Part shown: positions 35,632-63,566 of the stretch, piece after piece | How positions within the stretch are numbered: the first letter of the stretch is position 1 | Layout: each line of letters opens with the position of its first letter | Assembly (NCBI RefSeq): GCF_000265385.1 | Contig: NC_018013.1 | Span: forward strand, 2,445,001 to 2,509,000 | Length of the DNA: 64,000 nucleotides | Reading direction: 5' to 3' | From: Aequorivita sublithincola DSM 14238 | Lineage (GTDB): Bacteria > Bacteroidota > Bacteroidia > Flavobacteriales > Flavobacteriaceae | Position numbers and translations under genes: made by a program | Notes under the pieces: model-generated | What the model saw: only the letters and a program-made list of their open reading frames with translations | Databases searched by the model: none | What the model was told of the DNA's origin: nothing

Positions 35632-36048
35632 GTAACGGTTAGTATTAGAAACGTAGCGCGTTAAAAGACGTTACTTTTCGGTTAAATACTGAGCCAAATT
35701 TTTATATTTTTCTAATTATTTTTTCTTTTCCCGATTAGCCCACCGAAGGAATACAACCACCAAAATATAAAATAAAAACGCAGTGGTAAATTTAAAAATT
35801 TGGCGACCTTGAAAAAATGCCCGAACCTTCGTGTTAGCAACAACTCGCACTATGTTTTATATACATGAAAAGTAGCGCTGAAAATAAGCGATAACTTTTC
35901 GGATGAAACACAAGCCGAATTTCTAAATTTTACTAATTATTTTATTTTTGGGAATTTATCAAATTTAAAAATTTGGCGACTTCCCAAAAATGCCCGAACC
36001 TTTGTGTTAGCAATGACTTGCGCTATTTTTTATATATTTTTGGCAAAT
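35632..36048. repeat. Two fused attC-like palindromes (A1 and A2), no gene between
   Basis: A1 (about 35632-35866) runs from GTAACGGTTAGTATTAG to TTTTATATACA. A2 (about 35861-36048) runs from GAAAAGTAGCGCTG to GCGCTATTTTTTATATA-TTTTTGGCAAATG. Both contain AAATTTAAAAATTTGGCGAC and TGCCCGAACCTT-GTGTTAGCAA. They are joined directly, which suggests a cassette lost by deletion. A2 belongs to the 608-aa gene unit; its GTTGGC box is degenerate (TTTGGC). Confidence 0.75.
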
Positions 36049-36053
36049 GTTAT

Positions 36054-37880
36054 TTACAATTCTTTTCCGTATTTGGCTCCATATTCCTTAAGATCTTCTT
36101 TTATTAGTTCAAATTTACTAATAGCTGAGCTCATAAACTGCCCAGTATATTCATTATTGTTTAATAAACATTCGATAAAATCAAGTATTGTCTCTTTTTT
36201 TCCTTTAATAATATCATAGTCATTCCAATGATATTCAGTTCCTTCATAATATATCATTGCATCGATTAAATCCCAATATCTATTTGCTAATAAAACTTTA
36301 AGAATGTCTCTATTTGGCTGTACTCCATCACAATATGAGGTTTTTGGTTCTATACGACCTCTTAAAACTTCACGATTTTCTTTAAAAAATTTGAGAAGGA
36401 TTTCAGAAGTCGTTTCTCTATCAGAATCTTTATCTTCGCCATAGTAATTCAGAATATTTTCAATTAAATATTTACTTGAAAACTCTGAATAACCTATCCA
36501 TTTTTTAAATAATGAAGGTAATTCTTCTTCGTTTGTGGTTTTATATCCAGCATCTTTTTCTAAAGAAATTGGGTTTATGTTTTTATCAATGAAATATCTT
36601 TTACCTTTAAATTGGACTACTGAATATTTATCAGACCTAAAAGAATATGCTTTTTCAAAAAATATAGGACTTAGATATTCACCAGATCTATTAATATAAG
36701 ATTCTTTACCACCAACTTCAACGACTGCATTAAAATCATTCGAATTAAATTTTTGCGCTTCGTCGAATTTTAAATCTGTTATAATATTTCCTTTTTTATC
36801 AACATAACCAAATTTAGTTTTTTTATAATCTTCACGTTTTGCAATGACCCCTAATTCATCATCTTCTATATAGTTCGCTACAATTTTATAGTCATTTATA
36901 AACCACTCATAATTCCCTTTTAAATCTATAAGACCATAATTTTTGCCACTACTATGATGTTCCCTTTTAATTGAAGCTATTCCATCTTTTGTGAATTCCC
37001 CTATAGTAATATCTTTTAAGCCTAATTTTTGAAAATTTAAAATTTCGTTTCCATTTTTATCTAAAACTCCTTTTACTTTTAAATAGGCATAAACTTGCTC
37101 TACCACATTCTTGTCAAATATAAGGTCTCCGTAGGCTGTATATCCATTATGATAACCCTTTATCATTTTACCTCCTTTGTAATCATAAACAACTTCTCCC
37201 TTTGTATTGATTGCAATTGGAAAAGAAGCTTTTGTTGTTGCTCCAGGTAAGGAATATAGTTTGTAAAAAACCACAATATCGTTATCAAATTTTCTTGGAG
37301 AACTTTTGGCTAAATCATATTCAGATTGATAAATTATTTTACCATCAGTATTAATGATAATAAATTCAAAATGGTCTGTTCCTATAAAAGCAAATCCATT
37401 ATTAAATTCCGGTAAGATTACATGCTTAGATGTTGTTTTATATATAACAGAATTTTGACTGTTTAAATATGCGGTCAAACCATCTTGATATTTTATTCGT
37501 CTTATAGTTTCAGAATTACTCAATAACTCTACTTTTTCACCATTTAACTGTAAATGGACGGGATCTTTAATTATTATTGGTTTTCTAGCTTCTATTATTG
37601 ATTCGAAATATGAATTAACTTTGTTTTTTGATGATTGATTTGCATTGGAGTTCAAAAATTCTATTTTCAAAGATTCAGCATCTTTTGTTTTTCCAAGACA
37701 ATTTAAAATTTTCATTTTCAAAAAAGCGTCATCAGAATTGAGATTGGAACTTAGGTTTAATACATCCAATGCTTTTTCAAATTCGAAGCCTCTATAGAGA
37801 TTATAGGCTTTAGTTGATTGAGCATTTAAGTTCAAACCAAATAAAATTAAAATTATATTTAATAGTACAGTTTTTTTCAT
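36054..37880 (-). CDS. WG-repeat protein, exported
   Basis: The 608-aa protein has a signal peptide (MKKTVLLNIILILFGLNLNAQ) and a central WG-like repeat region (KYGLID-type units: NYGLIDLKGNYEW, KFGYVDKKGNIITDLKFDEAQKF, SYINRSGEYLSPIFFEKAYSF). The C-terminal 90 residues (KVLLANRYWDLIDAMIYYEG, KKETILDFIECLLNNNE) resemble the C-terminus of the neighbouring 176-aa protein. Function unknown. Cassette gene of the array, read away from the recombinase. Confidence 0.7.
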   Translation of the reverse strand: MKKTVLLNIILILFGLNLNAQSTKAYNLYRGFEFEKALDVLNLSSNLNSDDAFLKMKILNCLGKTKDAESLKIEFLNSNANQSSKNKVNSYFESIIEARKPIIIKDPVHLQLNGEKVELLSNSETIRRIKYQDGLTAYLNSQNSVIYKTTSKHVILPEFNNGFAFIGTDHFEFIIINTDGKIIYQSEYDLAKSSPRKFDNDIVVFYKLYSLPGATTKASFPIAINTKGEVVYDYKGGKMIKGYHNGYTAYGDLIFDKNVVEQVYAYLKVKGVLDKNGNEILNFQKLGLKDITIGEFTKDGIASIKREHHSSGKNYGLIDLKGNYEWFINDYKIVANYIEDDELGVIAKREDYKKTKFGYVDKKGNIITDLKFDEAQKFNSNDFNAVVEVGGKESYINRSGEYLSPIFFEKAYSFRSDKYSVVQFKGKRYFIDKNINPISLEKDAGYKTTNEEELPSLFKKWIGYSEFSSKYLIENILNYYGEDKDSDRETTSEILLKFFKENREVLRGRIEPKTSYCDGVQPNRDILKVLLANRYWDLIDAMIYYEGTEYHWNDYDIIKGKKETILDFIECLLNNNEYTGQFMSSAISKFELIKEDLKEYGAKYGKEL

Positions 37881-37892
37881 GAGTTATGTTTA

Positions 37893-38077
37893 ATGTTCGT
37901 TAAGGCACATAGTTTACAAAGTTAAAGGGACATGCTTTACACTAGATTCTGACTTAGTCTAATTGATACTTGTTTATCTCTGATTTTATTTTCATTAAAG
38001 TAGCCTAAAAATACATCTCTGGAAAATTTCCAAGAATTTTCCAGATGAGCACAGACCCAGCAATGGTTTATACACGG
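37893..38077. repeat. Degenerate attC-like palindrome, right arm cut by an IS110-family element
   Basis: The right half keeps CAAGAATTTTCCAGATGAGCACAGACCCAG... TTTATACACGG, which matches D-type palindromes (TTTTCCAAGTGAGGACAGACCAAG ... TTATATACGG). The closing GTTG box is found on the far side of the IS element (39303-39313, TGTTGTGCAAC). The left arm has decayed. It belongs to the 176-aa gene unit. Confidence 0.6.
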
Positions 38078-38129
38078 CTTAAGTTTGATGTTTATTAAAA
38101 ACACTAAATTAAGGCATATTAATCAGAAA

Positions 38130-38260
38130 GAACAAAAGAGCGGAATAAGGTTATTATATACGCAGAAGCATAGACTTCGTCAACATTGAAAATCCCCGCT
38201 CTTTTCTACACAGATTTCGTACAGTTCTATGAGGCTTCAGACCTCGATTTTAAGTCGTTG
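38130..38260 (+). ncRNA. Probable IS110 bridge RNA region
   Basis: IS110-group elements encode a structured bridge RNA in the non-coding end upstream of the transposase. Here AAAAGAGCGG (38134-38143) pairs perfectly with CCGCTCTTTT (38196-38205), enclosing a smaller GAAG/CTTC hairpin, and GAGG-CTTCAGA-CCTC (38231-38245) forms a second hairpin. That layout fits a bridge RNA with internal loops, but loop-to-target pairing was not established. Confidence 0.55.
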
Positions 38261-38298
38261 AAACTCGCGTAGGGTGTCCTTTCAAAAAACATTTTCTT

Positions 38299-39270
38299 AT
38301 GAATAAAGATATAAAATATTTTGGGATCGACATCAGCCACTTGGTTTTCGATGTTACGGACTCCGAGGGCAATTACAATCAATTTAAAAACAATCCATCT
38401 GGCTTTAAGAAGTTTGCCAAACTCTTAGACCAAGAGAGCCATTGTGTGATGGAAGCTACGGGCTATTATCATTATCAGCTGGCATATTTTTTACTTGAAT
38501 CCGGTATTAAAGTATCGGTAGAAAATCCATTGGCGGTAAAACGTTTTATACAGATGAAGCTGACCAAGAACAAGACCGACAAGAGCGACTCTAAACTTAT
38601 ATGTGACTATGCAGAGCAGGTAGCATTAAAACTCTGGCAAGGCAACTCCAAGCATCAAATTGAATGTCTGCAAATGACCAGACTCCTTGCTGTATATACA
38701 AAACAGAGCACGATGCTAAAAAATAAATTGCACGGGGAGAGTGTTTTAGGCAACCCTAGCAAAGCTGTTGTGAGTTCTTTAAAACGAAGTTTAAAACACG
38801 TTAAAAAAGAGCTGGAAGCCATAGAGACAAAATTATTGCTATTGGTAAAACAAGTGCATCAAGATGTTTTAACTCGTATAAAAAGCATCCCTGGGATCGG
38901 TGACAAAACAGCTATAATGTTAGTGGTTTTAACTGATGGATTTGATCGTTTTACAAGTGGAAGTGAATTATGCAGTTATGCAGGTCTGACCCCAATAATT
39001 CGGCAAAGCGGTAGCAGTTTAAAAGGACGTCCCCGCATCAGTAAGATTGGCAATCAAAAGCTCCGTAACCTATTATTTATGTGCAGTTTTAATGCCTGTA
39101 AATACAACAAGGCCTGTAGGGAGATTTATGAGCGCATAGTGGCCAAGGGAAAGAGTAAAAAATTAGCACTGATCGCAGTCTGTAATAAGCTGCTAAAACA
39201 AGCTTTTGCAATCGCAAAATCCGGATTAATATATGATGATACTTACAGAAGTACTTTAGTGAAAAATTAA
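38299..39270 (+). CDS. IS110-family transposase (DEDD)
   Basis: The 323-aa protein begins KYFGIDISHLVFDV with the first Asp of the RuvC-like DEDD site, then CVMEATGYYHYQLAYFL (Glu) and KNKTDKSDSKLICDYA (Asp pair). The C-terminal Tnp_20-type domain shows IPGIGDKTAIMLVVLTDGFDRFTSGSELCSYAGLTPIIRQSGSS, with the catalytic-serine segment of the family. It is the only gene of the element and appears intact. Confidence 0.93.
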   Translation: MNKDIKYFGIDISHLVFDVTDSEGNYNQFKNNPSGFKKFAKLLDQESHCVMEATGYYHYQLAYFLLESGIKVSVENPLAVKRFIQMKLTKNKTDKSDSKLICDYAEQVALKLWQGNSKHQIECLQMTRLLAVYTKQSTMLKNKLHGESVLGNPSKAVVSSLKRSLKHVKKELEAIETKLLLLVKQVHQDVLTRIKSIPGIGDKTAIMLVVLTDGFDRFTSGSELCSYAGLTPIIRQSGSSLKGRPRISKIGNQKLRNLLFMCSFNACKYNKACREIYERIVAKGKSKKLALIAVCNKLLKQAFAIAKSGLIYDDTYRSTLVKN

Positions 39271-39353
39271 TGCATTTTTACTTGTTTTTTACCACAGTAC
39301 TTTGTTGTGCAACGTTTTTATTCTATAATCAATTTTTTTTTAATCGAACACCA

Positions 39354-39884
39354 TTAAAGGTCTTTTCCTCTTTTTCCACCTCTTTTTTCTATACTATCTG
39401 CTAAAGCTTCAAGCTCAATAATATCATAATCTTCAGCTAAATTCTCGTCATTAATTATTAAATATATAAAATCTAAAAGGGTTTCTTTTTTGCTATTAAT
39501 AATTTCATATTTATTAAAGTCAACTGAATATTCTTTATCTATTGCTAATTGTTGTAAATATCCATATAGTCCACTTGATACAGAACGTTTAAGTAATTGT
39601 TCTCTTTCACGCAAACCTTCAATTCCGTCATCTACACAGATTAGTATATTACTATGTTTATTTAAATAATCTGACACTATTTTCTTTCTATTTGGGTCGT
39701 TTAAATCGGTTCCAATTTTTTTTAAAATTCCTCTATCAAACTCATCAGTTGGCGCAGTATTGCCCCAAGTTCTGTAACCAAGCATACAAATTTGTGAAGC
39801 TAATTCTTCATTGTCAGAGTTTTGAGCATTAATTGTATTAATTCCAATAAAAAACAGGATGACTATAAGGTTTATTATTTTCAT
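39354..39884 (-). CDS. Exported protein of unknown function, related to the C-terminus of the 608-aa protein
   Basis: The 176-aa protein has a signal peptide (MKIINLIVILFFIGINTINAQ). I do not recognise a family. The C-terminal part (NSKKETLLDFIYLIINDENL ... SIEKRGGKRGKDL) is similar to that of the 608-aa neighbour (GKKETILDFIECLLNNNEYT ... KEYGAKYGKEL), so both may carry the same small helical domain. It is a cassette gene; the IS110-family element separates it from its sibling. Confidence 0.65.
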   Translation of the reverse strand: MKIINLIVILFFIGINTINAQNSDNEELASQICMLGYRTWGNTAPTDEFDRGILKKIGTDLNDPNRKKIVSDYLNKHSNILICVDDGIEGLREREQLLKRSVSSGLYGYLQQLAIDKEYSVDFNKYEIINSKKETLLDFIYLIINDENLAEDYDIIELEALADSIEKRGGKRGKDL

Positions 39885-39901
39885 ATTGTTATTTTTAAAT
39901 G

Positions 39902-40418
39902 TTTGCCAACGTTAAGCGGATATGATCCGTACCGTCTCAAGACCTTTTATAAAGATACTATAATTCGGAAAATTGGAATAGCTTTAAATGATATGCCGAA
40001 AAAAGGTATGGGTTATATCCGCCTGTTGTGTTTAGGTTTTTTGGGCCCACCCATGGATCTTTTGGCAACAACAAAACCGGAGTTTTGGCGACCCGGCATA
40101 CAGCTGCTGCGCAAGAGTGCCTGGGCGATTTTTTGATATGCGGTTTATCCTTTGGATAAACAGCCGTCTCAAAAAGTAATTTTAAGCCCGCAATGCGCTA
40201 AAAATCAGGGCACAAAAGGCAGCGAACCCTTGACATCGTGATTTTTTTTCGCTACCTTGACCAAGTCTTCTTACGTTGACAACGTTTGGAAATGCCAATT
40301 TCCACGATGCAATCGACAAGACTTGGACGCACAAGTGCGTTTTCTGTCCAGATTTTCCCCGCTAAAAAACCAATTTAAAATTCGGCCAGAACAATAGGTC
40401 GGTAAAATTAAATGCAAC
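39902..40418. repeat. 511-bp non-coding cassette, copy 1
   Basis: A unit of exactly 511 bp between AAC boxes (39908-40418) is almost identical to 48700-49210 and 58924-59434. Its left 125 bp is an attC-like palindrome (GCGGATAT ... ATATCCGCC then GTTGTGTTTAGG). The remaining 385 bp has no convincing gene; it holds hairpins (CCAAGTCTT/AAGACTTGG, GGAAAT/ATTTCC, CGCAC-AA-GTGCG). Small plus-strand frames run through the palindrome and are not credible. Confidence 0.8.
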
Positions 40419-40544
40419 GTTTGGTATAACCGCAGTTACGGCTAAATATACGAGGTTTTTCGGTTAAGCACGGAAGTTAGCAATTACGCGTGGATTCGGA
40501 CGCAGTCGAATCCGCCGTAATTGCGGTTATACAGTGTTGCAAAC
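40414..40544. repeat. attC-like palindrome, C type (copy 1)
   Basis: The arms GTATAACCGCAGTTACGG and CCGTAATTGCGGTTATAC close a 118-bp imperfect hairpin between AACG and GTGTTGCAAAC. It belongs to the beta-barrel gene unit; the box GTTGCAAAC pairs with GTTTGCAAC at 41192-41200 on the other side of that gene. A near-copy lies at 43180-43315. Confidence 0.8.
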
Positions 40545-40553
40545 AGTTTTTCC

Positions 40554-41171
40554 TCACAGTTTATAACTAAGGCCGAATTGTAAAACAGAACTTTTATTAT
40601 TATCACGTTCAGTAATTCCATAATTATATCGAAGTCCAATTCGATAATTTTCTGCGAAGGTAAATCCTGCTCCAACATTCAGCGCAACTTCAAATTTATC
40701 ATAATCATCATTTCCAAAATTGAAATCATCATTATTATCAGTTACATCTTGATTGATTACATATCCGAATTGTGGTCCCAATTCTAAATCGAAACTATCA
40801 CTGAAATAATAATCAGCCATAATTGGAAGTAAAATCAAATTCTGCTTAATATCTGCTTTAAATCTATTGCCGAAAACAGGGTCATTAGGGTCACCCATAT
40901 TTATGTTTTCTGAAAATTCAATTTCTGCATTTTGTGTTGAAAACAGCAATTCAGGTTTTATTCTAAAATTGTCAGTTAATTTAAAACTTAAAAATCCTCC
41001 AAGATGAAATCCAATTTTGGCATTTGTTTCTGCAGGAATGTTGTCATCAATAATTAGGTTGGAATAATTTAGACCTGCTTTTAATCCAAATTCGATTGGT
41101 TCATTTTGAGCTAAAACACTAAAGTTTATTAGCAGAGTAGTTATTCCGATTATCAATGTAGTCTTTTTCAT
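40554..41171 (-). CDS. Outer membrane beta-barrel protein (PorT-like)
   Basis: The 205-aa protein from MKKTTLIIGITTLLINFSVLAQ has a signal peptide and an outer-membrane beta-barrel pattern (IEFGLKAGLNYSNLIID, IGFHLGGFLSFKLTDNFRIKPELLFSTQNAEI, NVGAGFTFAENYRIGLRYNYGI) ending with an aromatic-rich strand and FGLSYKL. A longer frame upstream only reads through the D-type palindrome and was trimmed. Cassette gene; role in the outer membrane otherwise unknown. Confidence 0.82.
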   Translation of the reverse strand: MKKTTLIIGITTLLINFSVLAQNEPIEFGLKAGLNYSNLIIDDNIPAETNAKIGFHLGGFLSFKLTDNFRIKPELLFSTQNAEIEFSENINMGDPNDPVFGNRFKADIKQNLILLPIMADYYFSDSFDLELGPQFGYVINQDVTDNNDDFNFGNDDYDKFEVALNVGAGFTFAENYRIGLRYNYGITERDNNKSSVLQFGLSYKL

Positions 41172-41191
41172 TTCTGATTTTGTTTTAAATT

Positions 41192-41329
41192 GTTTGCAAC
41201 GGTTTTGTATATGAGCTGTGGCGTGTTTTGGCACGAACCTCTCCAAATATAAACTAACTTTGGGAAATCCGCAGGATTTTCCAAGTGAGGACAGACCAAG
41301 CCATAGCTTATATACGGTGTTGTAAAACG
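41192..41329. repeat. attC-like palindrome, D type (copy 1)
   Basis: The arms GTATATGAGCTGTGGC and GCCATAGCTTATATAC (14 of 16 pair) enclose a conserved core with GGGAAATCCGCAGGATTTTCC. The element closes with GTGTTGTAAAACG. It is identical beside all three copies of the 207-aa gene (also 52960-53096 and 58076-58213), showing that the palindrome moves with the gene to its right. Confidence 0.88.
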
Positions 41330-42031: not shown

Positions 42032-42234
42032 GTTTTACAACGTTTAGTATAAAAGAAGTAGGGCTGAAAGTAAGTAATTACTTTTCGGATTATCACCAAG
42101 CCAAATCTTTTGCATTTTGTTATATATTATTTTTCTAAAAGCCAAATCAAAAGATTTGGCGACCTTGCAAATATGCCTGAAACATTGGGTTTAGCACAGA
42201 CTTGCCCTATTTTTTTTATACATTGTTGCCCACA
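42032..42234. repeat. attC-like palindrome, E type (copy 1)
   Basis: It opens GTTTTACAACGTTTAGTATAA and closes TATACATTGTTGCCCACA. Outer arms (AGTATAAAAGAAGTAGGGC / GCCCTATTTTTTTTATAC) and inner arms (GCCAAATCTTTTG / CAAAAGATTTGGC) pair. It belongs to the 294-aa thioredoxin unit. Confidence 0.82.
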
Positions 42235-42271
42235 GTTATTTTTACCACACTTGATTTCCAATGATTTTTTT

Positions 42272-43156
42272 CTACATTAAATCAACTAATTTTTCTTTAA
42301 TAGAATTTATATTTTTTAAACCACTTCCTTTCCATTTGCCTATTATCACACCATCTTTATCAATCAAAACTCTATGTGGAATGCCCCAAACAAAATATTC
42401 ATTTTCAATGTCACTTTTATTTTCGACTGTTGAAATATTAATCCAATCCATATTATCTTTCAAAATTGCTTTTTTCCAGGAATCTAAATTTTCATCTCTG
42501 GAAATACCTATTATCTGCAATCCTTTATTTTTAAAATTTCTATTTATTTCGTCAAGATACGGACTATCTTCTCTGCAAGGCCCGCACCAGCTTGCCCAAA
42601 AATCTAGTAATACATATTTATTATTTTGAAAATCAGAAAGTTTTATTATATCACCATTTATATCTTTTAGAGAAAAAAGGGGTGCTTTACTATCAACTTT
42701 ACTGTTTTTAAACTTTTCTAATGCAAGTTTCAGCTTTTTTCCTTTTTCAGAGTTCTGAATTTCCTTAGGAAAAAGTTTATATGTTTTTAAAAATTCATCA
42801 TATAAATTCATTGCAGCTTGTGAACTAACCCACATAGCTATCAAATTTAAAGAATATTGGTGTTCTGAATTTTGTTGGGCAAACTTTAAATTATTCTGGA
42901 GTATTTTAACTAAATTATTGTCATACATTTCCCATAATTCTGTAATCTCATTTTGTTTCTCTTTAAGAATAAGACTGTCTGTAATTGTGATGATGAATTT
43001 ATTTAAGTTTTCAATTTCAGATCTTAAAACAGTGTTTTGTTTGTTTAAATTTTCATTAATGCCTTTGATTTCAGTTGTAAGTTTTTCCTCTATAGAATTT
43101 TGTGCATTGCTAAAAGTTGTTGTAAAAATGAATAAAATCAATAGAATGTTTTTCAT
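42272..43156 (-). CDS. TlpA-like thiol-disulfide oxidoreductase, exported
   Basis: The 294-aa protein has a signal peptide ([20 protein letters not shown]), a helical N-terminal part, and a TlpA/AhpC-TSA thioredoxin domain from about residue 155 with [19 protein letters not shown] (active site CGPC) and [20 protein letters not shown] (cis-Pro loop). It likely acts in periplasmic disulfide chemistry. Cassette gene with end boxes GTTGCCCACA and GTGGGCAAC. Confidence 0.87.
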
Positions 43157-43179
43157 TGTGATTTAGGTTTTTTTTAATT

Positions 43180-43315
43180 GTGGGCAACGTTTAGTATAAC
43201 CGCAGTTACGGATAAATATACGAGGTTTTTCGGATAAGCACCGACGGTAGCAATTACGCGTGGATTCGGACGCAGTCGAATCCGCCGTAATTGCGGTTAT
43301 ACATTGTTGCCCACA
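43180..43315. repeat. attC-like palindrome, C type (copy 2)
   Basis: Nearly identical to 40414-40544 (same CGCAGTTACGG and CCGTAATTGCGG arms), opening GTGGGCAACGTTTAGTATAAC and closing TATACATTGTTGCCCACA. It belongs to the 21-bp repeat unit. The same palindrome type serves two unrelated units. Confidence 0.82.
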
Positions 43316-43394
43316 GGCTTTCCAGCGTTTTGTTTTTCCGATTATCGGACCGTATGGATGTTTTTTCTCGGTAGTAGCTCTAATTCTCTTGTCA

Positions 43395-43835
43395 GTTGCT
43401 CTAATTGTTAATTCACTCGCTATATTTGTTAATGCGGTCGCTCTAATTGTTAATGCACTTGCTGTATTTATTAATGCGGTCGCTCTAATTGTTAATGGAG
43501 TCGCTCTAATTGTTAATGCACTCGCTATATTTGTTAATGCGGTCGCTCTATTTGTTAATGCAGTCGCTCTAATTGTTAAAGAAGTCGCTTTATTTGTTAA
43601 TGCAGTTCCGATATTTCTTTTTGCAGTTGCTCTATTTCTTAATGCAGTTCTGATATTTCTTTTTACAGTTGCTCTATTTCTTGAAGCAGTTCCGACATTT
43701 CTTAAAGCAGTTCCAATATTTCTTTAAACAGTAACTATAATCCTTTATGCAGTTCCGATATTACTAAAGACTGTTTTGTTATTTCTTTTAGCAGTCATTA
43801 TAATTTTTTATTCAGTTCCAATATTTCAAAATTCT
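43395..43835. repeat. 21-bp minisatellite, about 21 units, filling a cassette with no intact gene
   Basis: The minus-strand consensus is GAAATATCGGAACTGCATTA plus A, strictly 21-periodic over about 440 bp. Read in one minus frame it gives heptads of the form E-I-S-E-L-H/L-K/Q/stop, a coiled-coil pattern broken by TAA codons, so it may be a decayed coiled-coil gene. The plus strand is open as a hydrophobic VNAVALI repeat, which starts inside the palindrome and is unlikely to be a gene. Confidence 0.75.
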
Positions 43836-43874: not shown

Positions 43875-44076
43875 TGTGGGCAACGGTTTTGTATAAGAAT
43901 AGTAGGGCGGAAAAAAGGCGACTACCATTCGGTTAAACACAAGCCGAATTTTTAAATTTTTCTTATTATCTTTTTTGTTCAATAAGCCAAATTTAAAAAT
44001 TTGGCGACCTTGCAAAAGTGCCTGAAACATTGAATTAAGCGACAATTGCCCTATTATTTTTATACGTTGTTGGCAA
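43875..44076. repeat. attC-like palindrome, G type (copy 1)
   Basis: It opens GTGGGCAACGGTTTTGTATAA and closes TTTATACGTTGTTGGCAAC, with arms GTATAAGAATAGTAGGGC / GCCCTATTATTTTTATAC and inner arms AAATTTTT...AAAAATTTGGCGACC. It belongs to the 416-aa gene unit. A second copy is at 54843-55043. Confidence 0.82.
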
Positions 44077-44105
44077 CTGGCTTTCTGCGTTCAGATTGGT
44101 TTTTA

Positions 44106-45356: not shown

Positions 45357-45375
45357 ATTTTGTTTTTTTTAGCTT

Positions 45376-45576: not shown

Positions 45577-45586
45577 AGTGCTTCTT

Positions 45587-53799: not shown

Positions 53800-53935
53800 G
53801 TTTTACAACGTGTTTGTATATGAGCTGTGGCGTGTTTTGGCACGAACCTCTCCAAATATAAACTAACTTTGGGAAATCCAAAGATTTTCCAAATGGGCAC
53901 AGACCAAGCCATAGCTTATATACGGTGTTGGCAAC
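53800..53935. repeat. attC-like palindrome, D type (copy 4)
   Basis: It opens GTTTTACAACGTGTTTGTATAT and closes TATACGGTGTTGGCAAC. The core reads AAATCCAAAGATTTTCC instead of the CCGCAGG form next to the 207-aa gene. It belongs to the 282-aa gene unit. Confidence 0.82.
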
Positions 53936-53949
53936 TGGCGCTCTCGCAC

Positions 53950-54798: not shown

Positions 54799-54842
54799 AA
54801 ATTTATTAGTGTTTTAATTATAGCAGTATTTTTTTTTCGCTT

Positions 54843-55043
54843 GTTGCCAACGGATTTGTATAAGAATAGTAGGGCGGAAAAAGGCGACTACCATTCGGTT
54901 GAACACAAGCCGAATTTTTAAATTTTTCTTATAATTTTTTTTCTTCAATAAGCCAAATTTAAAAATTTGGCGACCTTGCAAAAGATCACTTACCATTGGG
55001 TTAAGCACTCATTGCCCTATTATTTTTATACGTTGTTGGCAAT
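54843..55043. repeat. attC-like palindrome, G type (copy 2)
   Basis: It opens GTTGCCAACGGATTTGTATAA and closes TTTATACGTTGTTGGCAAT; the arms match 43875-44076 (GTATAAGAATAGTAGGGC). It belongs to the 369-aa gene unit. Confidence 0.82.
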
Positions 55044-56191: not shown

Positions 56192-56327
56192 ATTGCCAAC
56201 GTTTGGGTATATGAAAAGTAGCGGCTTAAAATGTAATAACTTTCGGCTAAAAACTAAATTTCGTAAACAGCGAAAATCTTCGATTTAGCAATGAACCCGC
56301 TATTTTTTATATACTGTGTTGGCGGTA
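56192..56327. repeat. attC-like palindrome, K type
   Basis: It opens ATTGCCAACGTTTGGGTATATG and closes TTATATACTGTGTTGGCGGTA with arms GTATATGAAAAGTAGCGG / CCGCTATTTTTTATATAC. It belongs to the AIPR unit (box GTTGGCGGTA pairs with TACTGCCAAC at 58076-58085, one mismatch). Confidence 0.8.
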
Positions 56328-56333
56328 GTGCTT

Positions 56334-58043
56334 TCACTTCTTTGCGTAATCTATTAAAATCTTTGTTTTTTGTAAAACTTTTAAATTTTGTCTATCTGAT
56401 TTGTCAAAACCTGAATTTTCTATAATATCAGTACATTTCTTGAAGGCTTTCAATGCTTTGGTTTCATCATTTAATATAAGCAATAATTCCGAGCAAAACT
56501 TTTCCATTTTTTTGTGATTGTTTAATGGTGGTTGATTTTCTTTTTCGCTTATTATTCTAAAAAGCATTAAAATGTGAAATCTCACTTTTTTAAACGAACT
56601 GTCTATGCTACCCTTTCTAAAAAATGATTCTAATTTATAGAAAGCAAAAGCACTTGTATAATAAGGGGCATATGAATGGTCATTATTGAAAATTTGTGCT
56701 TTACCTTCATTAAGTCTTTTAACAATTGTTCCAAAGAAACTTGTTACATTATGAGGTTCATCTAAAAACATCGCTGCAAAAGACTTTATTTGATATGGTA
56801 CAGTAATGACTTTTGATTTTAGAACATTATTGTCAGAATTGTATTGCTTTGCTCTCCTTTCATAATATATTTTTGCATCGCCTGTGTATGAATTATAATA
56901 TTGTTCTAAACTTCTTTGAAATTGTGTTAAAGCGGCTAATTGCTCTTTTTTAATCGGTGTTTGATTATTAGTTGCAAGTGTAATTCTGGTTTTGATTTCA
57001 TCATCATTAGTTGCAATTAATTTAATTGGTATTCCAACTTTACCAATGTTACCACTTTTTCTATTATTATATAAAACGTTACTTGTTTGACAGCCATTTA
57101 CAATTTGATAATCTGAAATTGTAAATTGGTCTCCAGTTGGTGAAATTGAGCTTGCAACAATTGTCACTCCATTATTTAGTACACTAAATATTTCCGAATC
57201 CTCGTTGTTTAAAGTAAGAGCAATTCCGCCGTTTACATCGTTGTTATCTCCTTGGAAATCTCTAACGTTATCTTCAAATACATTTAGAATATTATCTTCA
57301 CTATCTGACACAATTTTTAAAAATTCAGAGAATGGCAAAAGTCCTATATATGCTTGAGATACTCCATTTATTTTTGGTAATGTAATTCTATTATTAAAAT
57401 TTATTGTTGTACTTATTGTTTCCTTTGTTTTTCTGTAAGCTGTTGCCAATTCTCTTGCACCAAATGGATGAAAAGTAACTTTTTCGAAAAGGTTAGTTTG
57501 TTCAAGATTTACAGTACCATTTTCTATTACCCCTTTTAAATTAGCATCATCCATCCATTTTCCCGTAGTAATGTAAAATAATTTGATTGAAGGATTTTCT
57601 CTAAATCTCGGTGCTTTATTAATTATATAATTGGAAACTTCCGCAAATTTTTTGATATCTTCATTCCGAACTAATTTGGGATTAGTTGCGAAAAAGTCAA
57701 GAACACCAAATAAAAATGTACCTATGTCAGCACCCTCGAAACTTGGTGAAGTTTTGGATTGCACAAACAAGTATTCAATTTCCAATGAATTATTTTTCTC
57801 TAATAAATCATCCACTTCATCAGTGCTTTCTACAAGTTGTCCATTAACAATAATGGCTATACCATCAATTCCTGTATCATTGCCATCTCCAACGGTCAAA
57901 GTCTCAATATCAAATGTCTTATTGTATTCGTTTGAGACAACTGTGTAGTTTGCCAACTTTTCAAAATCTTTTGATTCGTCTTCAGAGTTTATTTCTAAAT
58001 TTGATAATAATTCTGTAATTAAACTTTCTGTTATTCTATCCAT
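56334..58043 (-). CDS. AIPR family protein (abortive infection/phage resistance)
   Basis: The 569-aa protein has the AIPR pattern: TVGDGNDTGIDGIAIIVNG and LEIEYLFVQSKTSPSFEGADIGTFLFGVLDFF near the N-terminus (a nuclease-like D...Q-x-K core), then FSVLNNGVTIVASSIS and QIVNGCQTSNVLYNNRK (about 285-335), which are highly typical of the family. AIPR proteins are linked to phage resistance and often to R-M loci. Cassette gene with no partner, so it may act alone. Confidence 0.88.
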   Translation of the reverse strand: MDRITESLITELLSNLEINSEDESKDFEKLANYTVVSNEYNKTFDIETLTVGDGNDTGIDGIAIIVNGQLVESTDEVDDLLEKNNSLEIEYLFVQSKTSPSFEGADIGTFLFGVLDFFATNPKLVRNEDIKKFAEVSNYIINKAPRFRENPSIKLFYITTGKWMDDANLKGVIENGTVNLEQTNLFEKVTFHPFGARELATAYRKTKETISTTINFNNRITLPKINGVSQAYIGLLPFSEFLKIVSDSEDNILNVFEDNVRDFQGDNNDVNGGIALTLNNEDSEIFSVLNNGVTIVASSISPTGDQFTISDYQIVNGCQTSNVLYNNRKSGNIGKVGIPIKLIATNDDEIKTRITLATNNQTPIKKEQLAALTQFQRSLEQYYNSYTGDAKIYYERRAKQYNSDNNVLKSKVITVPYQIKSFAAMFLDEPHNVTSFFGTIVKRLNEGKAQIFNNDHSYAPYYTSAFAFYKLESFFRKGSIDSSFKKVRFHILMLFRIISEKENQPPLNNHKKMEKFCSELLLILNDETKALKAFKKCTDIIENSGFDKSDRQNLKVLQKTKILIDYAKK

Positions 58044-58075
58044 ATTTTCAATTTATTACGAGTGTTTTTTTGCAT

Positions 58076-58213
58076 TACTGCCAACGGTTTTGTATATGAG
58101 CTGTGGCGTGTTTTGGCACGAACCTCTCCAAATATAAACTAACTTTGGGAAATCCGCAGGATTTTCCAAGTGAGGACAGACCAAGCCATAGCTTATATAC
58201 GGTGTTGTAAAAC
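58076..58213. repeat. attC-like palindrome, D type (copy 5)
   Basis: It opens TACTGCCAACGGTTTTGTATA and closes TATACGGTGTTGTAAAAC. Body identical to the D copies next to the other two 207-aa genes. It belongs to the third 207-aa unit. Confidence 0.88.
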
Positions 58214-58222
58214 GTTTTTTCC

Positions 58223-58846
58223 TCACTCAATTTCCATATAGATTAAAAAGAATTGTGGTATTTTATATTTCTCATACCAATTTTCAATGTCTATTCCACC
58301 TTGCGAAACTTCACAATAACCTAAATTTCCTTTACTTGGGTCTCTATTTGGTGGCGTTATCAATGCGATTTGAAAAGGTTTATGCAGTTCAAATTCAAGA
58401 CCGTCTGTTGTAATATTAATTTTTCTTAAACTAAAGTCGCCATCTTTAAACTCGCTTTTTGTGTCGAAGATTTTTTTGTTCAGAAATCTTGGGAAAAAGA
58501 AACCTATTTTTTCATAATTCAGAATATTTTGCGTGATTAAACTAAATTGAAAGGTTGTGTCTATTTTAGGTAATCTTTCTTTTTCTGTGTTTAAAACTAC
58601 CAACTCATTAAATAATTTTCCGTTTTGGTATTCTTTAATGATTAATTTATAGTTTTTTCCGTTCAGGGATTTTTTGTCATTCTCGTTTAGTGAGAATTTT
58701 AATTTTTCAATCCCTTGAAAATAATTCATTTGTAGGTCATTATTTTCTTTTGGAAAATCATAATCGGCTTTCAGTTCAAATTTTTCTTGAGCTTGTGATA
58801 TTAATGAGCCGAAAATCAAGGTCAATACTAAAATCAGTCTTTTCAT
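58223..58846 (-). CDS. Exported 207-aa protein of unknown function, copy 3 of 3
   Basis: Identical protein to 41338 and 53106, with an apparently identical 5' region up to GTTTTACAAC (58917-58926). Next to it here is the 511-bp unit. Three error-free copies in one array indicate recent spread of this unit. Confidence 0.8.
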   Translation of the reverse strand: MKRLILVLTLIFGSLISQAQEKFELKADYDFPKENNDLQMNYFQGIEKLKFSLNENDKKSLNGKNYKLIIKEYQNGKLFNELVVLNTEKERLPKIDTTFQFSLITQNILNYEKIGFFFPRFLNKKIFDTKSEFKDGDFSLRKINITTDGLEFELHKPFQIALITPPNRDPSKGNLGYCEVSQGGIDIENWYEKYKIPQFFLIYMEIE

Positions 58847-58916
58847 TTTATTGTTATTTTGTTAATATTTTAAAGACGAAAAAAATTTTGTTGTGGTGCT
58901 AAATTTTTTTCTAAAT

Positions 58917-59434
58917 GTTTTACAACGTTAAGCGGATATGATCCGTACCGTCTCAAGACCTTTTATAAAGATACTATAATTCGGAAAATTGGAATAGCTT
59001 TAAATGATATGCCGAAAAAAGGTATGGGTTATATCCGCCTGTTGTGTTTAGGTTTTTTGGGCCCACCCATGGATCTTTTGGCAACAACAAAACCGGAGTT
59101 TTGGCGACCCGGCATACAGCTGCTGCGCAAGAGTGCCTGGGCGATTTTTTGATATGCGGTTTATTCTTTGGATAAACAGCCGTCTCAAAAAGTAATTTTA
59201 AGCCCGCAATGCGCTAAAAATCAGGGCACAAAAGGCAGCGAACCCTTGACATTGTGATTTTTTTTCGCTACCTTGACCAAGTCTTCTTACGTTGACAACG
59301 TTTGGAAATGCCAATTTCCACGATGCAATCGACAAGACTTGGACGCACAAGTGCGTTTTCTGTCCAGATTTTCCCCGCTAAAAAACCAATTTAAAATTCG
59401 GCCAGAACAATAGGTCGGTAAAATTAAATGCAAC
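58917..59434. repeat. 511-bp non-coding cassette, copy 3
   Basis: AAC-to-AAC 58924-59434, 511 bp, almost identical to copies 1 and 2 (for example TTTATTCTTTGG against TTTATCCTTTGG). The left neighbour differs in all three copies (176-aa unit, R-M unit, 207-aa unit), so the borders are exact. Confidence 0.8.
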
Positions 59435-59560
59435 GGTTAGTATATGAAAAGTAGGCGATTTCGAAGCACGAATCTTTCGGTTAAGGACAAACTTTGATAC
59501 GAGCCACAAGCTTTGAATTTAGCATTATTTCGCCTATTTTTTATATACATTGTTACCTGC
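59430..59560. repeat. attC-like palindrome, F type (copy 2)
   Basis: Same type as 49206-49336 (GTATATGAAAAGTAGGCG arms), with several substitutions, closing TTATATACATTGTTACCTGC. It belongs to the T9SS-protein unit (right box GCAGGTAAC, 61254-61262). Confidence 0.82.
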
Positions 59561-60024
59561 TGGCTTTTTGCGTATTGTTTATTTCAGATTTCAATTCAAA
59601 TTCGACTTTATTTTAGTCGTCAGTCGCAACCATAAAACAATACCCTTTCACAATTTTCCAAGAACGATATTATAAATCTTACCATTTACTTCAATTTCCG
59701 ATTCCGTCAAATCTGTGAATTTCATATAGGTTTATTAGAACTATAAGAAAATTTCACTTCTATGGATTTCAATAGTTTTATTCCAGTCAAAATTAGAAAT
59801 ATTTTAAATGGATTTCGTTTTCCATTTCTAATTAATTGAAATGTACTATTTGTCAAAGATTGCTTTTATTTTGAGTGTTTTTAATTTTTTCTCCATATAA
59901 ATAAATTACGATTCCAATAAATTACATAAATAAATGAATTTTTCTATTATTTATGTGTTGTATATAGCAACGAAAAAGCCCTAAATAAATTCAAGGCTTT
60001 AAAATTTGATTACTGAAATAAAGA
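59561..60024. other. Non-coding part of the T9SS-protein cassette
   Basis: About 460 bp between the palindrome and the stop codon of the 60025 gene. AT-rich, with no gene recognised; the only clear structure is the terminator at 59972-60001. Confidence 0.5.
59972..60001 (-). terminator. Rho-independent terminator of the T9SS-protein gene
   Basis: On the minus strand AAAGCC (60000-59995) pairs with GGCTTT (59980-59975) around a 14-nt loop, followed by TTTTCG. It lies 24 bp after the stop codon, so this cassette carries its own terminator. Confidence 0.6.
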
Positions 60025-60990
60025 TTATTGCTTTAAAATTTTTTGAGTGAGTGTACCTGCAGAAGTATTTAAAGTTAAAATATAAAAACCGCTAGATAGA
60101 GATGATGTATCTATCGAACCATTAACCAATCTAAGACCCGTATTTGCGCCTAAAATATTTATTAAATTTGCATTGTTTACATTTACGCTAGCAGGCACTT
60201 TTACGTTTAAGATGTCTGTTGTTGGATTTGGGAATACTACAACTAAGTTTTCAATGTTCTCACCAACACCTAATAACGGTTCACCTTCAACAGTGAAACC
60301 CATACTGATCACTGGTAAAGAATAGACTGAAAATGGAGTCCAATTTGTTGCACCTATATTTAAGAGATTCGCTGGATCAATAAAATGTGCTTGGTTTATA
60401 CCAGCACTTCCGTAAGTAGTAAACACCTTCCAAGACGCAAAATCCCCTACGTCAAAAATATCAAGTCTAGGAGCCGCAACGACCCAATAGTTGCCAGCAG
60501 GCAAAATAAGCTCTTCACCTCCATTGGCAAGTGTAATATCTAACTCGAATGCATAAAAATTTCCGTCAGTATTTATAATGTTAAGTGCATCACCTAAAGG
60601 ATCATAATTTACTATTTCCAAAAGACCAGAACCTGGAATTACTGGATTTCCGTTAGGGCTATTATCAACCGAATTGCCATAAATATATAAATCAAGACCC
60701 TCTAAAATATCAAGAAAGTTGTCACCATTCTCATATCCAAAAACAGTAATTTTATCAATTCGGGATGATTGCGTAAGTTCGAAATCATCAGCACTAACAA
60801 TCATATTCCCTGATTGATTAGTTATTGAAGAATAACTTCCCCAAGGAGCAAAAGATGTTTGATCCCATAACAGAGATTGTGAACTGTGTGTGTAATTTGG
60901 AAATGATCCTATTGAGTTAACAGGAAACGACTGTGAGTTAGCCGCAAAAGAGAAAATAACCGCAGCGATTAATAACGTAGTTTTTTTCAT
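60025..60990 (-). CDS. Secreted protein with T9SS C-terminal sorting domain
   Basis: The 321-aa protein has a signal peptide (MKKTTLLIAAVIFSFAANSQ), a beta-rich central part (SLLWDQTSFAPWGSYSSITNQSGNMIVSADDFEL...) and a type IX sorting domain (VVVFPNPTTDILNVKVPAS ... IDTSSLSSGFYILTLNTSAGTLTQKILKQ). It is exported across the outer membrane by T9SS. The function of the central domain is unknown. Cassette gene, second from the recombinase. Confidence 0.82.
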   Translation of the reverse strand: MKKTTLLIAAVIFSFAANSQSFPVNSIGSFPNYTHSSQSLLWDQTSFAPWGSYSSITNQSGNMIVSADDFELTQSSRIDKITVFGYENGDNFLDILEGLDLYIYGNSVDNSPNGNPVIPGSGLLEIVNYDPLGDALNIINTDGNFYAFELDITLANGGEELILPAGNYWVVAAPRLDIFDVGDFASWKVFTTYGSAGINQAHFIDPANLLNIGATNWTPFSVYSLPVISMGFTVEGEPLLGVGENIENLVVVFPNPTTDILNVKVPASVNVNNANLINILGANTGLRLVNGSIDTSSLSSGFYILTLNTSAGTLTQKILKQ

Positions 60991-61253
60991 AGTAATAAGT
61001 TTTATTTTTCAAATAACATAAATTTAAATTTTTTCCCTCAAGAATTGAAAAAAAATATGTTAAATTTATTTTATTCCCAATACTGAATGCAATTCGCTTT
61101 TATAACTTTTGCCAATACGAAAATATTTTCCGCGGACTTCAAATCCGAAATCATTGTATAAATCGAGAAAATTCCGATTGCAAGCGCTAAAATTGATAAT
61201 TGAGAATTTCTTATCATCAATGTTTATTGGTCAGCACGATTTTTTTCCAGCTT
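60991..61253. other. Upstream region of the T9SS-protein cassette
   Basis: About 260 AT-rich bp with no gene. A weak promoter-like pair on the minus strand (TTG then TATGTTAT about 18 nt later) lies before the gene start. The rest shows nothing recognisable. Confidence 0.35.
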
Positions 61254-61454
61254 GCAGGTAACGGTTAGTATAAAAGAAGTAGGGCTGTAAATAAGCAATA
61301 AATTTTCGGATTAACCACAAGCCAAATCTTTTGCATTTTGTTTTATATTATTGTTCTAAAAGCCAAATCAAAAGATTTGGCGACCTCATAAATATGCCTT
61401 AACCATTGGGTTTAGCACTTACTTGCCCTATTTTTTTTATACATTGTTGGCAAC
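61254..61454. repeat. attC-like palindrome, E type (copy 3)
   Basis: It opens GCAGGTAACGGTTAGTATAA and closes TATACATTGTTGGCAAC. From AACGGTTAG on it is identical to 45376-45576. It belongs to the second Cas4-like unit. Confidence 0.88.
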
Positions 61455-61464
61455 AGTGCTTCTT

Positions 61465-62589
61465 TTATTCACTATCCTTATTCTTTCTTTTCAGATGACT
61501 TGGAAAAATTACATATTTTAAATTTAAATCCATTTTATTATATGGCATTTGAAGTGTTTCAGAAGTACCAGTTTTATGAGCGCAATATTTGTTTACAATG
61601 CAAGCTCCACACTTTTCGCTATTAGCAATGAATTGAAAATTTTGTATTTTATTAATAACCAAATCTCTAACATTTGTATGTATGTTTTTTAAAGCCACTA
61701 AATTTTCGTCCGATTTAATTACTTTTACTGATACATTATGAATATATGGTTTCTCAAATTCATAATCATAAAACCAATATATTAAAATCCCATAATCAAT
61801 TTTATAATCTAATATGTATTTTATGTACGATGAAAGTTGTATTAAATGATTAGAATAGAATGAATTTAGAGAAAAATTTTGTTCATTAAGTTTTCGTTCA
61901 TAATATGGTGATTCTTTATCTAAATCTTTTTTTAAAAATTTAAATTTTTCTTCGACAACAAAATATTTATCATTTGGGTCTTTAAAAATATAATCAGGTT
62001 GACCAATGTAATTTTCTTGAGTATTAATAAAGTATTTGTTTTCTTTATCGTGACCAGAAAAGATTAATTTACAACTCTTAATTTTTCTTATAGTATTATT
62101 ATTTAAAACACTATCTTCAAAATAGTCTGAAAATGATTCTTTTTCTAAATTTAACTTATTAATTAATCTTAATTTTTCGTGGAAATATTTCCCGACATTT
62201 CTTTTCTGTTTACCTGTTGGAAATTCTATTTCAAATGATTTGGATATCGAAAAACTTGCTGGGCAATAATCATAATTAGCTAAATCAGTTGCTGTTATAA
62301 AATCCTTTTCATTAAATGATTTTAATTTTATCTGTGATAAATCCTTTTTTATTTCAACTTCTTTCAATAATTCTTCTATAACTCCAGAATTGCTATATTT
62401 CCAAATCCATTTATCTACTGTAAAACCGTTTGGATAAGTGTCGACTCTTAATTCTTGATAATATCTTCCATAAATATCCTCAAGTTTATTTTTATAGCCG
62501 TTTATAAAATCTTGATTTGAAAAGCCAATTTTTTCAAATAAATAATCTAAAAAAATTCGCTGTTTTTCGCTAAATGGCTTCCAAATCAT
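61465..62589 (-). CDS. Cas4/RecB-like PD-(D/E)XK nuclease with Cys cluster, copy 2 of 2
   Basis: Identical in protein sequence to the gene at 45587, with the same palindrome at its 3' side. It is the unit next to the recombinase, the place where integrons insert new cassettes, so this copy may be the most recent arrival, or the copy at 45587 an earlier insertion. Same domain reading: GQPDYIFKD ... VVEEKFKF nuclease site and C-terminal CGACIVNKYC. Confidence 0.82.
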   Translation of the reverse strand: MIWKPFSEKQRIFLDYLFEKIGFSNQDFINGYKNKLEDIYGRYYQELRVDTYPNGFTVDKWIWKYSNSGVIEELLKEVEIKKDLSQIKLKSFNEKDFITATDLANYDYCPASFSISKSFEIEFPTGKQKRNVGKYFHEKLRLINKLNLEKESFSDYFEDSVLNNNTIRKIKSCKLIFSGHDKENKYFINTQENYIGQPDYIFKDPNDKYFVVEEKFKFLKKDLDKESPYYERKLNEQNFSLNSFYSNHLIQLSSYIKYILDYKIDYGILIYWFYDYEFEKPYIHNVSVKVIKSDENLVALKNIHTNVRDLVINKIQNFQFIANSEKCGACIVNKYCAHKTGTSETLQMPYNKMDLNLKYVIFPSHLKRKNKDSE

Positions 62590-62616
62590 ATTAGCTAAAT
62601 TTAATTATTTTTTTTG

Positions 62617-62741
62617 CATTGTTGCCAACTATTAGATATACGCAATTTAACAAAAAAGTGCTTATATACAACCTAATTAGTACGGTTATAAGTAACTTTT
62701 GTTGTATTTTCACATACACAACCCTTTAGTTGTATATACGC
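62617..62741. promoter_or_regulatory. Candidate primary attachment (attI-like) site and recombinase promoter region
   Basis: The outermost cassette ends with GTTGCCAAC (62621-62629); beyond it comes TATTAGATATACGCAA and no further palindrome, then the recombinase gene reading away. The region has a dif-like inverted repeat (ACATACACAAC, 6-nt spacer, GTTGTATATAC; 62712-62739) and TATACAAC at 62665-62672. A near-consensus TAAC-TTTTG lies at about 62692-62700. Confidence 0.55.
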
Positions 62742-63566
62742 ATGTTTACCGAGTTTGAAATATTACTCAAAATTAAAAGATATAGCCCCAACACTATCAG
62801 TACATATGTGGGGCTTCTCCAGTCTTTTAGTGACTATATAGGCGAATTTCAGGAAATTTATCGATTGGATGCTAAACACCTGCTTCAAAAAATAAGGGAG
62901 ATTATTATAGATAAGAGTTACGCATATACAACCCAAAAGCAATTGTTGAGTGCCTTGCAATTGTATTTAAAAGAAATGCACGGTCGCGAAACAGATTTTA
63001 GCACTTTGCGTCCCAGAAGTCCCCAAAAAGTACTTCCCGATATTTTAGCTTTAACGGAAGTAAAATTGATTTTGGACAGAACCGAAAATATAAAACACAA
63101 AGCCATGCTCACTACTATTTATGCCTTAGGCTTGCGCAGTGGCGAGCTCATAGATCTGGAAATTGTGCATCTGGATGGTAGTCGCAATACGGTGTTTATT
63201 AAACAAGCAAAGGGCAAAAAGGACCGTATGCTTCCTTTTCCTGAAAAACTAAAGGAGCTGCTTAGAGCATATTATAAAACCCACAAACCCAAACGGTTTC
63301 TTTTTGAGGGGCAAGATGGCGGGCCTTATACTGCGGGCAGCTTAAGAGCTGTTTTTAAGCAAGCTACAAAACGTGCTTCTATTAAAAAGAACGTTACTTT
63401 GCACAGTCTTCGGCATGCTTTTGCCACACATCTGTTGGAATCCGGGACAGATCTTAGAGTGATTCAGGAACTATTGGGGCACAATACTATAAAGACCACG
63501 ATGCTCTATACGCACGTGACCTATGCACATCTATTAAAGGTGAAAAGTCCGCTGGAATTACTATAA
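62742..63566 (+). CDS. Tyrosine recombinase (XerC/D- or integron-integrase-like), array recombinase
   Basis: The 274-aa enzyme has a SAM-like N-terminal core-binding domain (MFTEFEILLKIKRYSPNTISTYVGLL) and a catalytic domain with Arg132 (GLRSGEL), Lys157 (QAKGKKDR), His221-x-x-Arg224 (HSLRHAFATHLLESG), His247 (LLGHNTIKTTM) and nucleophile Tyr256 (LYTHV). It ends KVKSPLELL, as many integron and phage-type integrases do. The roughly 40-residue insertion that marks IntI between the Lys and His motifs is missing. A TTG four codons upstream is possible; I chose the ATG. It is divergent from the cassette genes. Confidence 0.9.
   Translation: MFTEFEILLKIKRYSPNTISTYVGLLQSFSDYIGEFQEIYRLDAKHLLQKIREIIIDKSYAYTTQKQLLSALQLYLKEMHGRETDFSTLRPRSPQKVLPDILALTEVKLILDRTENIKHKAMLTTIYALGLRSGELIDLEIVHLDGSRNTVFIKQAKGKKDRMLPFPEKLKELLRAYYKTHKPKRFLFEGQDGGPYTAGSLRAVFKQATKRASIKKNVTLHSLRHAFATHLLESGTDLRVIQELLGHNTIKTTMLYTHVTYAHLLKVKSPLELL

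Follow-up and report, generated by a model that had tools for sequence, protein, structure and literature searches.

Integrons are gene-capture platforms, best known for the spread of antibiotic resistance. A classical integron combines a recombinase, IntI, that carries an additional segment (the I2 or patch III insertion) with an attI site and with attC sites, whose R''-L''-L'-R' arms fold on the bottom strand. The tyrosine recombinases XerA, XerC and XerD act in chromosome-dimer resolution at dif. Here we describe an array of cassettes on the single-contig 3.52 Mb chromosome of Aequorivita sublithincola DSM 14238, together with an adjacent tyrosine recombinase that lacks the IntI insertion. 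Both lie in a window of 64,000 nucleotides (positions 2445001-2509000 of the chromosome). We read this locus as a second, I2-free kind of integron, which would work as integrons do minus one defining feature of IntI. We put at about 0.82 the probability that the locus is a Bacteroidota cassette platform of the integron type, driven by a recombinase that is related to IntI but has no I2. The sequence evidence consists of the array, a core at its recombinase-proximal end, exact cassette copies in distant arrays, pairing of each cassette's own ends, strand-biased folding, covariation, and the link between sites and recombinase family.

According to passages of PMC7790495, I2 confers single-strand recombination, is found in no other protein, and has no known intermediates. 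Parts of PMC8138268 describe the insertion as essential for integron function, yet as not fully conserved in its subgroup; that integron-like subgroup may already include proteins of the present kind, given without their arrays. In the portions of two surveys that bear on this point, one complete integron was counted in Bacteroidetes proper, in Salinibacter (PMC9024848), and only integrases with an additional domain or patch were retained (PMC2426708). The system was described under no title that we found in the open literature, subscription papers and preprint servers being outside that coverage. A cassette system that is widespread, lacks I2 and has few extrahelical bases would make the origin and the minimal need of single-strand cassette recombination testable. 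It would also represent a large mobile cassette pool in Bacteroidota, here with restriction-modification and AbiU-like genes.

The array and its cassette ends

From open reading frames (ORFs) and intergenic sequences, 18 cassettes were delimited between 62629 and 39911, all on the minus strand and read away from the recombinase, with imperfect palindromes of mostly ~125 or ~190 nt between them. The initial annotation had described tandem minus-strand units, palindromes and an outward-reading recombinase, and all were found where it had placed them. In place of its figure of about 20 units, 18 can be delimited, from 62629 to 39911; the remainder, from 39.9 to 35.6 kb, is a decayed array end with an IS110-type insertion inside. 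It had also given the units a fixed end sequence. That sequence, GTTGGCAAC, does start 5 of the 18 cassettes, but the remaining starts vary (GTTGTAAAAC, GTTACCTGC, GTTGCATTT and others). Invariant among the window cassettes are GTT/AAC, the inner L arms, and a match of each start to its own end over ~14 nt. The features are as follows, in window coordinates unless the chromosome is named.

62730-63566, plus strand: I2-less tyrosine recombinase, 278 aa from TTG (Pfam PF00589, 7e-39)
62600-62665, minus strand: attI-like site, crossover G at 62629, TATATCTAATA^GTTGGCAAC on the minus strand, from copy comparison of the 374-aa cassette
61263-62629, minus strand: cassette 1, 374-aa gene (copy 1 of 2), weakly Cas4-like (PADLOC Cas4d 6.5e-7 for the other copy)
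59435-61262, minus strand: cassette 2, protein of 321 aa with a type IX secretion system (T9SS) tail
58927-59434, minus strand: cassette 3, no clear gene (copy 1 of 3 in the window)
58086-58926, minus strand: cassette 4, 207-aa gene (copy 1 of 3)
56201-58085, minus strand: cassette 5, AIPR/AbiU-like protein of 569 aa
54852-56200, minus strand: cassette 6, 373-aa protein
53810-54851, minus strand: cassette 7, CarboxypepD_reg-like protein
52969-53809, minus strand: cassette 8, 207-aa gene (copy 2)
49211-52968, minus strand: cassette 9, helix-turn-helix, type IIG restriction-methylation and specificity genes
48703-49210, minus strand: cassette 10, no clear gene (copy 2)
46751-48702, minus strand: cassette 11, C5 DNA methylase and 250-aa gene
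45385-46750, minus strand: cassette 12, 374-aa gene (copy 2; PADLOC Cas4d 6.5e-7)
43885-45384, minus strand: cassette 13, thioredoxin-like protein of 416 aa
43189-43884, minus strand: cassette 14, 21-bp tandem repeat
42042-43188, minus strand: cassette 15, thioredoxin-like protein of 294 aa
41201-42041, minus strand: cassette 16, 207-aa gene (copy 3)
40419-41200, minus strand: cassette 17, outer-membrane beta-barrel protein, with a mismatch-free copy in the 1.64-Mb cluster
39911-40418, minus strand: cassette 18, no clear gene (copy 3)
35636-39910, minus strand: decayed distal end with a 176-aa gene, the IS110-type insertion, a WG-repeat protein and degenerate site copies at ~35.8-36.04 kb
39902-61454, plus strand (bottom strand): 18 recombination sites by the covariance model R1, starting at 39902, 40410, 41192, 42033, 43180, 43876, 45376, 46742, 48694, 49202, 52960, 53801, 54843, 56192, 58077, 58918, 59426 and 61254 (those at 52960, 53801, 56192 and 58077 are among the 70 sites that built R1)
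82.9-90.3 kb of the same chromosome: extra site cluster L259
1643.9-1648.6 kb of the same chromosome: extra site cluster L260
1891.9 kb of the same chromosome: lone site

Each cassette begins with 14 nt (R') that are reverse-complementary to the R'' arm of the site at its own 3' end, not to that of its neighbour. Over positions 4-14, own R' and R'' matched at 121 of 143 positions in 13 distinct cassettes. Permuted R'/R'' pairings reached a mean of 65.9 and a maximum of 101 (0 of 100000 as high as 121), and abutting neighbours in the linear array matched at 81 of 187 positions across all 18 units. Such matching is expected if each unit is, or once was, a circle closed at these ends.

Units that recur in the window (the 374-aa gene twice, the 207-aa gene and the gene-free unit three times each) have differing neighbours. 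Identity between copies stops at GTT, 0-3 nt before its G and 3-8 nt from it; the exception is one 5' comparison of the gene-free unit, in which both copies follow similar sites and identity therefore extends for another 38 nt. The two copies of the 374-aa cassette (cassettes 1 and 12) share sequence only from the G of GTT onward. This comparison places an attI-like site beside the recombinase, with cassette 1 starting at 62629. By eye, a TATA-N-GTT core was present at the recombinase-proximal end in 11 of 11 loci with the short form of the recombinase and in ~12 of 18 with the long form (both described below).

Searching the chromosome with R1, for which 150 of 3578 first-look candidates were scored, returned 30 matches: three clusters, in the window (17), at ~83-90 kb (6) and at 1.644-1.649 Mb (6), and the lone site. 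Two of the three clusters lie away from the genome's four Phage_integrase genes. Cassette 17 recurs in the 1.64-Mb cluster over 788 bp with zero mismatches, and the ~83-90 kb and 1.64-Mb clusters share an identical cassette of 1407 bp that contains a TPR-like gene; both cassettes have their border at GTT. These mismatch-free pairs are 0.8 and 1.6 Mb apart, and each has different neighbours. Distant copies of this kind, bordered at GTT, indicate that cassettes move singly, at the integron crossover, and on this comparison single cassettes recently came to lie in distant arrays. The exchange is placed at GTT by sequence; the exact bond would, by analogy, be that of known integrons.

The most repeated unit was the 508-bp gene-free cassette, with three copies in the window and more in L259 and L260 that differ by a few mismatches between clusters. 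A promoter or a small RNA is a possible content of this unit. In cassette 14, the 21-bp repeat occupies 43332-43772 in ~15 copies, and the opposite strand has an open frame of 155 aa. Few cassette proteins were common to different loci: a set of 173 cassettes gave 3 matches. The insertion in the decayed end (38299-39270, plus strand), which we take to be of IS110 type, has a 98% identical copy, its frame in two parts, near the 1.64-Mb cluster (L260 4002-5280).

Folding and covariation of the recombination sites

Rfam gave a single weak match, to a snoRNA family, under the gathering score. For the wider survey of sites, we used a detector built on AAC...GTT, complementary inner arms and own-end matching, which is independent of the L sequence; a fixed GTATA/TATAC pattern was dropped because it missed arrays found later. 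Arrays were oriented by ORF direction, orientation by spacer asymmetry having been abandoned as noisy. Chains of at least three linked cassettes occurred in 29 of 101 recombinase loci, a set that includes the window; shuffled copies (0 of 202) and control stretches (0 of 21) had none. L037 and L116, both among the 29, come from the same genome, and L116 was removed before sites were counted. With at least two linked cassettes, the corresponding numbers were 35 of 101, 3 of 202 and 4 of 21. Cassette ORFs in 34 arrays ran in the common direction in 154 cases and against it in 7.

Among 136 sites from these 34 arrays, the non-coding (bottom) strand folded more stably at 116, and the locus mean was in the same direction in 31 of 34 loci. 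Stem mismatches were A.C on the coding strand, and so G.T on the other, in 235 cases versus 40 (composition-predicted share 0.62, p 1.6e-17). Covariation was scored across 70 aligned sites, each 122-127 nt long and with at most 4 per locus, from which R1 was also built. Outer stems were paired in 85.2% of cells, compared with 65.6% when shuffled and 31.7-48.7% when slid, and the covariation score was 0.449 (shuffled 0.143, slid at most 0.187). One G.U pair was kept in 69 of the 70 sites.

Computed folding of the bottom strands gave a hairpin with an unpaired central spacer, as in integrons, mostly 9 or 8 by 6 or 4 nt including the unpaired AAC/GTT ends. An extrahelical base on the L'' arm was predicted in 6 of 102 foldable sites of the I2-less family (FLA, as we call these recombinases here) and in 0 of 6 in the window, compared with 5 of 7 classical sites. 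Of the two halves of the classical end consensus, RYYYAAC fitted 10 of 136 FLA sites and GTTRRRY at R' fitted 5 of 136, while the classical control sites themselves fitted poorly (1 of 8 and 3 of 8).

The 136 sites comprised 12 of 58-61 nt, 95 of 122-127 nt, 6 of 156-159 nt and 9 of 186-190 nt, with 88 of the 136 at 123-126 nt. Lengths of 122 of the 136 thus fall into four narrow classes near 60, 125, 158 and 188 nt, spaced ~32 nt apart.

Recombinase lineage and co-occurrence with sites

In an alignment that takes in IntI from 30 classical loci within the phylum (with 9 rows of IntI displayed), the window recombinase lacks the IntI-specific insertion. The NCBIfam integron-integrase model scored it at 165 bits, below the cut-off of 265, and in two stretches. 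Both results bear out the missing insertion reported in the initial annotation. The classical model had no match in the window's own genome at E <= 1e-50. The best NCBIfam match of the window recombinase was XerA, below cut-off, which was also the best match in the PDB, and the predicted structure (predicted local distance difference test, pLDDT, 84) matched XerA and XerH. A KDR motif and an SPLD C-terminus are common to FLA and IntI. Recombinases associated with IS91 elements, which are relatives of FLA, are also without the insertion, as are XerA, XerC and XerD.

Our first careful tree comprised 66 rows: 32 FLA (17 from genome-search loci and 15 of 80 named), 15 of the 30 IntI, 9 XerD, 8 XerC and 2 XerA, with the XerC and XerD labels assigned by best match to the own-genome genes L001 and L003. 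L084 had dropped out of an earlier tree. In the second, 11 of the 66 rows were thinned and IS91-associated recombinases were added. FLA fell outside IntI, which had support of 100/100 in both trees, and did not group with XerC, XerD or XerA in either. FLA, IntI and the IS91-associated recombinases formed one clade, with XerA, XerC and XerD outside. A grouping of FLA with IntI was not rejected by the approximately unbiased (AU) test (p 0.276). The SPLD C-terminus was rejected as a mark of IntI and FLA alone, as the IS91-associated recombinases carry it too, and the claim of a unique FLA-IntI sister relation was therefore dropped. The trees place FLA as a lineage at the level of IntI, not a remote one, and agree with the separation from IntI that had been proposed.

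Among the matches listed, the closest named homologue was in Aequorivita nionensis (89% identity). Within the genus, a homologue at E <= 1e-40 was found in 22 of 27 other genomes, at 36-44% identity only. A 121-aa gene at 63570-63935 is convergent with the recombinase; at E 0.001 it matched nothing in Pfam.

Named genomes gave 581 confirmed recombinase stretches; the best 80, which were those used, represent many Bacteroidota lineages. Where the recombinase has the short form (open frame of ~275-290 aa) the array lies on its 5' side, and where it has the long form (~290-580 aa) on its 3' side; the exceptions are L177, for a chain of two links, and L188, for a site. The contig ended <2 kb past the recombinase 3' end in 33 of the 80 loci and started <2 kb before the gene in 5. 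Among the 40 loci that had 4 kb or more on the 3' side, 18 contained chains of at least three. Of the 72 loci that had no such chain, 30 were searched with R1, and 23 of these gave a site; of 20 IntI loci, 11 were searched, and none gave a site.

By hand count, 83 of 120 Flavobacteriaceae genomes had an FLA recombinase (88 matches minus 5 judged XerD only), and 103 had sites matching R1 at E <= 1e-6. The two occurred together in 80, the recombinase only in 3, sites only in 23 and neither in 14. The co-occurrence, 80 of 83 versus 23 of 37, had a Fisher p of 3e-6, for related genomes that are not independent. Across 296 genomes of the phylum, an FLA-type recombinase at E <= 1e-60 was found in 94 (hand count), classical IntI over cut-off in 84, and both in 25; of the 86 with any IntI match, none was from the Flavobacteriaceae. 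The palindromes, then, are not scattered without a tie: 29 of the 30 matches to the model in the window's own genome are in the three clusters, and sites adjoin related recombinases in many genera. This link, with the position of FLA outside IntI, supports the idea of a separate cassette-capture system of Bacteroidota with which the analysis started.

Mechanism, alternatives and known systems

From these patterns we infer the following route. Cassettes would be excised from the array as single circles, each with a hairpin site in which the R'' arm is paired with the R' end of the same cassette. The window recombinase would act on the non-coding strand of the site, folded as a hairpin, with strand exchange at GTT, and a cassette would be inserted at the attI-like core beside the recombinase gene or at another site. 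The asymmetric central spacer and G.T wobble pairs would direct the choice of strand in place of extrahelical bases, which would suit a recombinase in which the segment for reading them is missing. In the parts concerned, PMC2727003 reports that extrahelical bases direct strand choice and PMC7790495 that I2 confers single-strand recombination; because of this, an absent insertion and rare extrahelical bases are coherent with each other. We lean towards a second way of integron recombination, in which I2-less recombinases exchange single-strand hairpins without extrahelical bases, chosen via G.T wobbles and spacer asymmetry. If so, I2 would not be required for cassette systems, and FLA could resemble a stage before IntI gained I2.

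Several observations weigh against this account. The bottom-strand advantage was missing at 20 of 136 sites and in 3 of 34 loci. The covariation structure was drawn from the very 70 sites tested, and one of five covariation measures, double-change pairs, was 14 compared with 13.0 in shuffled alignments (148 of 500 as high). Some asymmetric loop was present in 39 of 102 FLA sites (7 of 7 classical), and the extrahelical-base test omitted 34 of 136 FLA and 1 of 8 classical sites with short stems. The classical comparison set was small, 8 sites from 3 of 20 loci, and itself had no clear strand bias in the same fold test (5 vs 2). Support for FLA fell to 87/63 once IS91-associated recombinases joined the tree. 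R1 had no match in 7 of the 30 loci without a chain of three, and, although built from such arrays, it matched 1 of 20 random stretches (three matches, L209). Finally, 3 of 83 recombinase genomes were without sites, and 23 of 37 without a detected recombinase had them.

The same recombinase might instead work at the L'-R' core (TATAC-N5-GTT) on double-stranded DNA, in the ordinary manner of Xer, and the symmetry of the hairpin would then amount to no more than two facing binding sites. The simple core of the attI-like site and the resemblance of the recombinase model to XerA and XerH would fit this, as would the absence of the insertion that passages of PMC7790495 tie to single-strand recombination. 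However, the stem mismatches favour pairing of the non-coding strand (235:40, with the G.U pair in 69/70), and the inner stems covary, which double-stranded recognition would not need. We regard this explanation as unlikely.

It is far less probable that the palindromes are repeats spread by other means, with cassette copies made by homologous recombination between them and the recombinase incidental. Sites are ~70-91% alike between genera, the lone site and two clusters lie away from the genome's four recombinases, and 23 genomes of the family have sites with no detected recombinase, as such repeats might. Yet the borders fall at GTT rather than anywhere in the repeat, the two ends of each cassette match each other, and sites adjoin FLA recombinases in many genera on a side set by the form (exceptions L177 and L188). 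Secondary loss of the insertion from a classical integron shares the geometry, the crossover triplet, the cassette logic, and the KDR motif and SPLD C-terminus in common with IntI, but is scarcely credible given that FLA lies outside a fully supported IntI (100/100) and that IS91-associated relatives, XerA, XerC and XerD are also without the insertion.

The integron-type platform with an I2-less recombinase, which we prefer, can be set beside three known systems. XerA, XerC and XerD are likewise simple tyrosine recombinases without the insertion, and XerA is the best NCBIfam (below cut-off) and PDB match, but they stand outside the clade of IntI, FLA and IS91-associated recombinases.

Recombinases next to IS91 elements (Bradyrhizobium, Rhizobium and Chryseobacterium plasmids) resemble FLA in a KDR-like motif, the SPLD C-terminus, the lack of the insertion and membership of the same clade. 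They differ in having an annotated IS91 transposase as neighbour in 3 of 5 rows (L246, L247 and L249); L250 and L251 were called IS91-associated by similarity. No linked cassettes were found in the IS91-associated loci L247 and L250, and the plasmid-borne relative L246 had no chain beyond one link. On this Chryseobacterium plasmid, a long-form relative is accompanied at 17853-19526 by one possible cassette, identified by eye, with a VOC-family gene; the FLA system may also be plasmid-borne. In L251, a site-like sequence at 616-760, 87% like a window site, lies upstream of the IS91-associated-like recombinase, of which that genome has several copies. Elements with such recombinases may insert at cassette sites.

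The IntI chromosomal integron is matched in its tandem cassettes read away from the integrase, its attI-like insertion point and exchange at GTT, its R''-L''-L'-R' sites with bottom-strand folding and an unpaired central spacer, and its site clusters away from the integrase, which resemble clusters of attC sites lacking integrases (CALIN). In contrast to IntI, the FLA recombinase is without the insertion and belongs to a separate lineage, and its long form has the array on the 3' side. FLA sites differ from those of IntI integrons in own-end pairing over ~14 nt, in the rarity of extrahelical bases and in their four narrow length classes.

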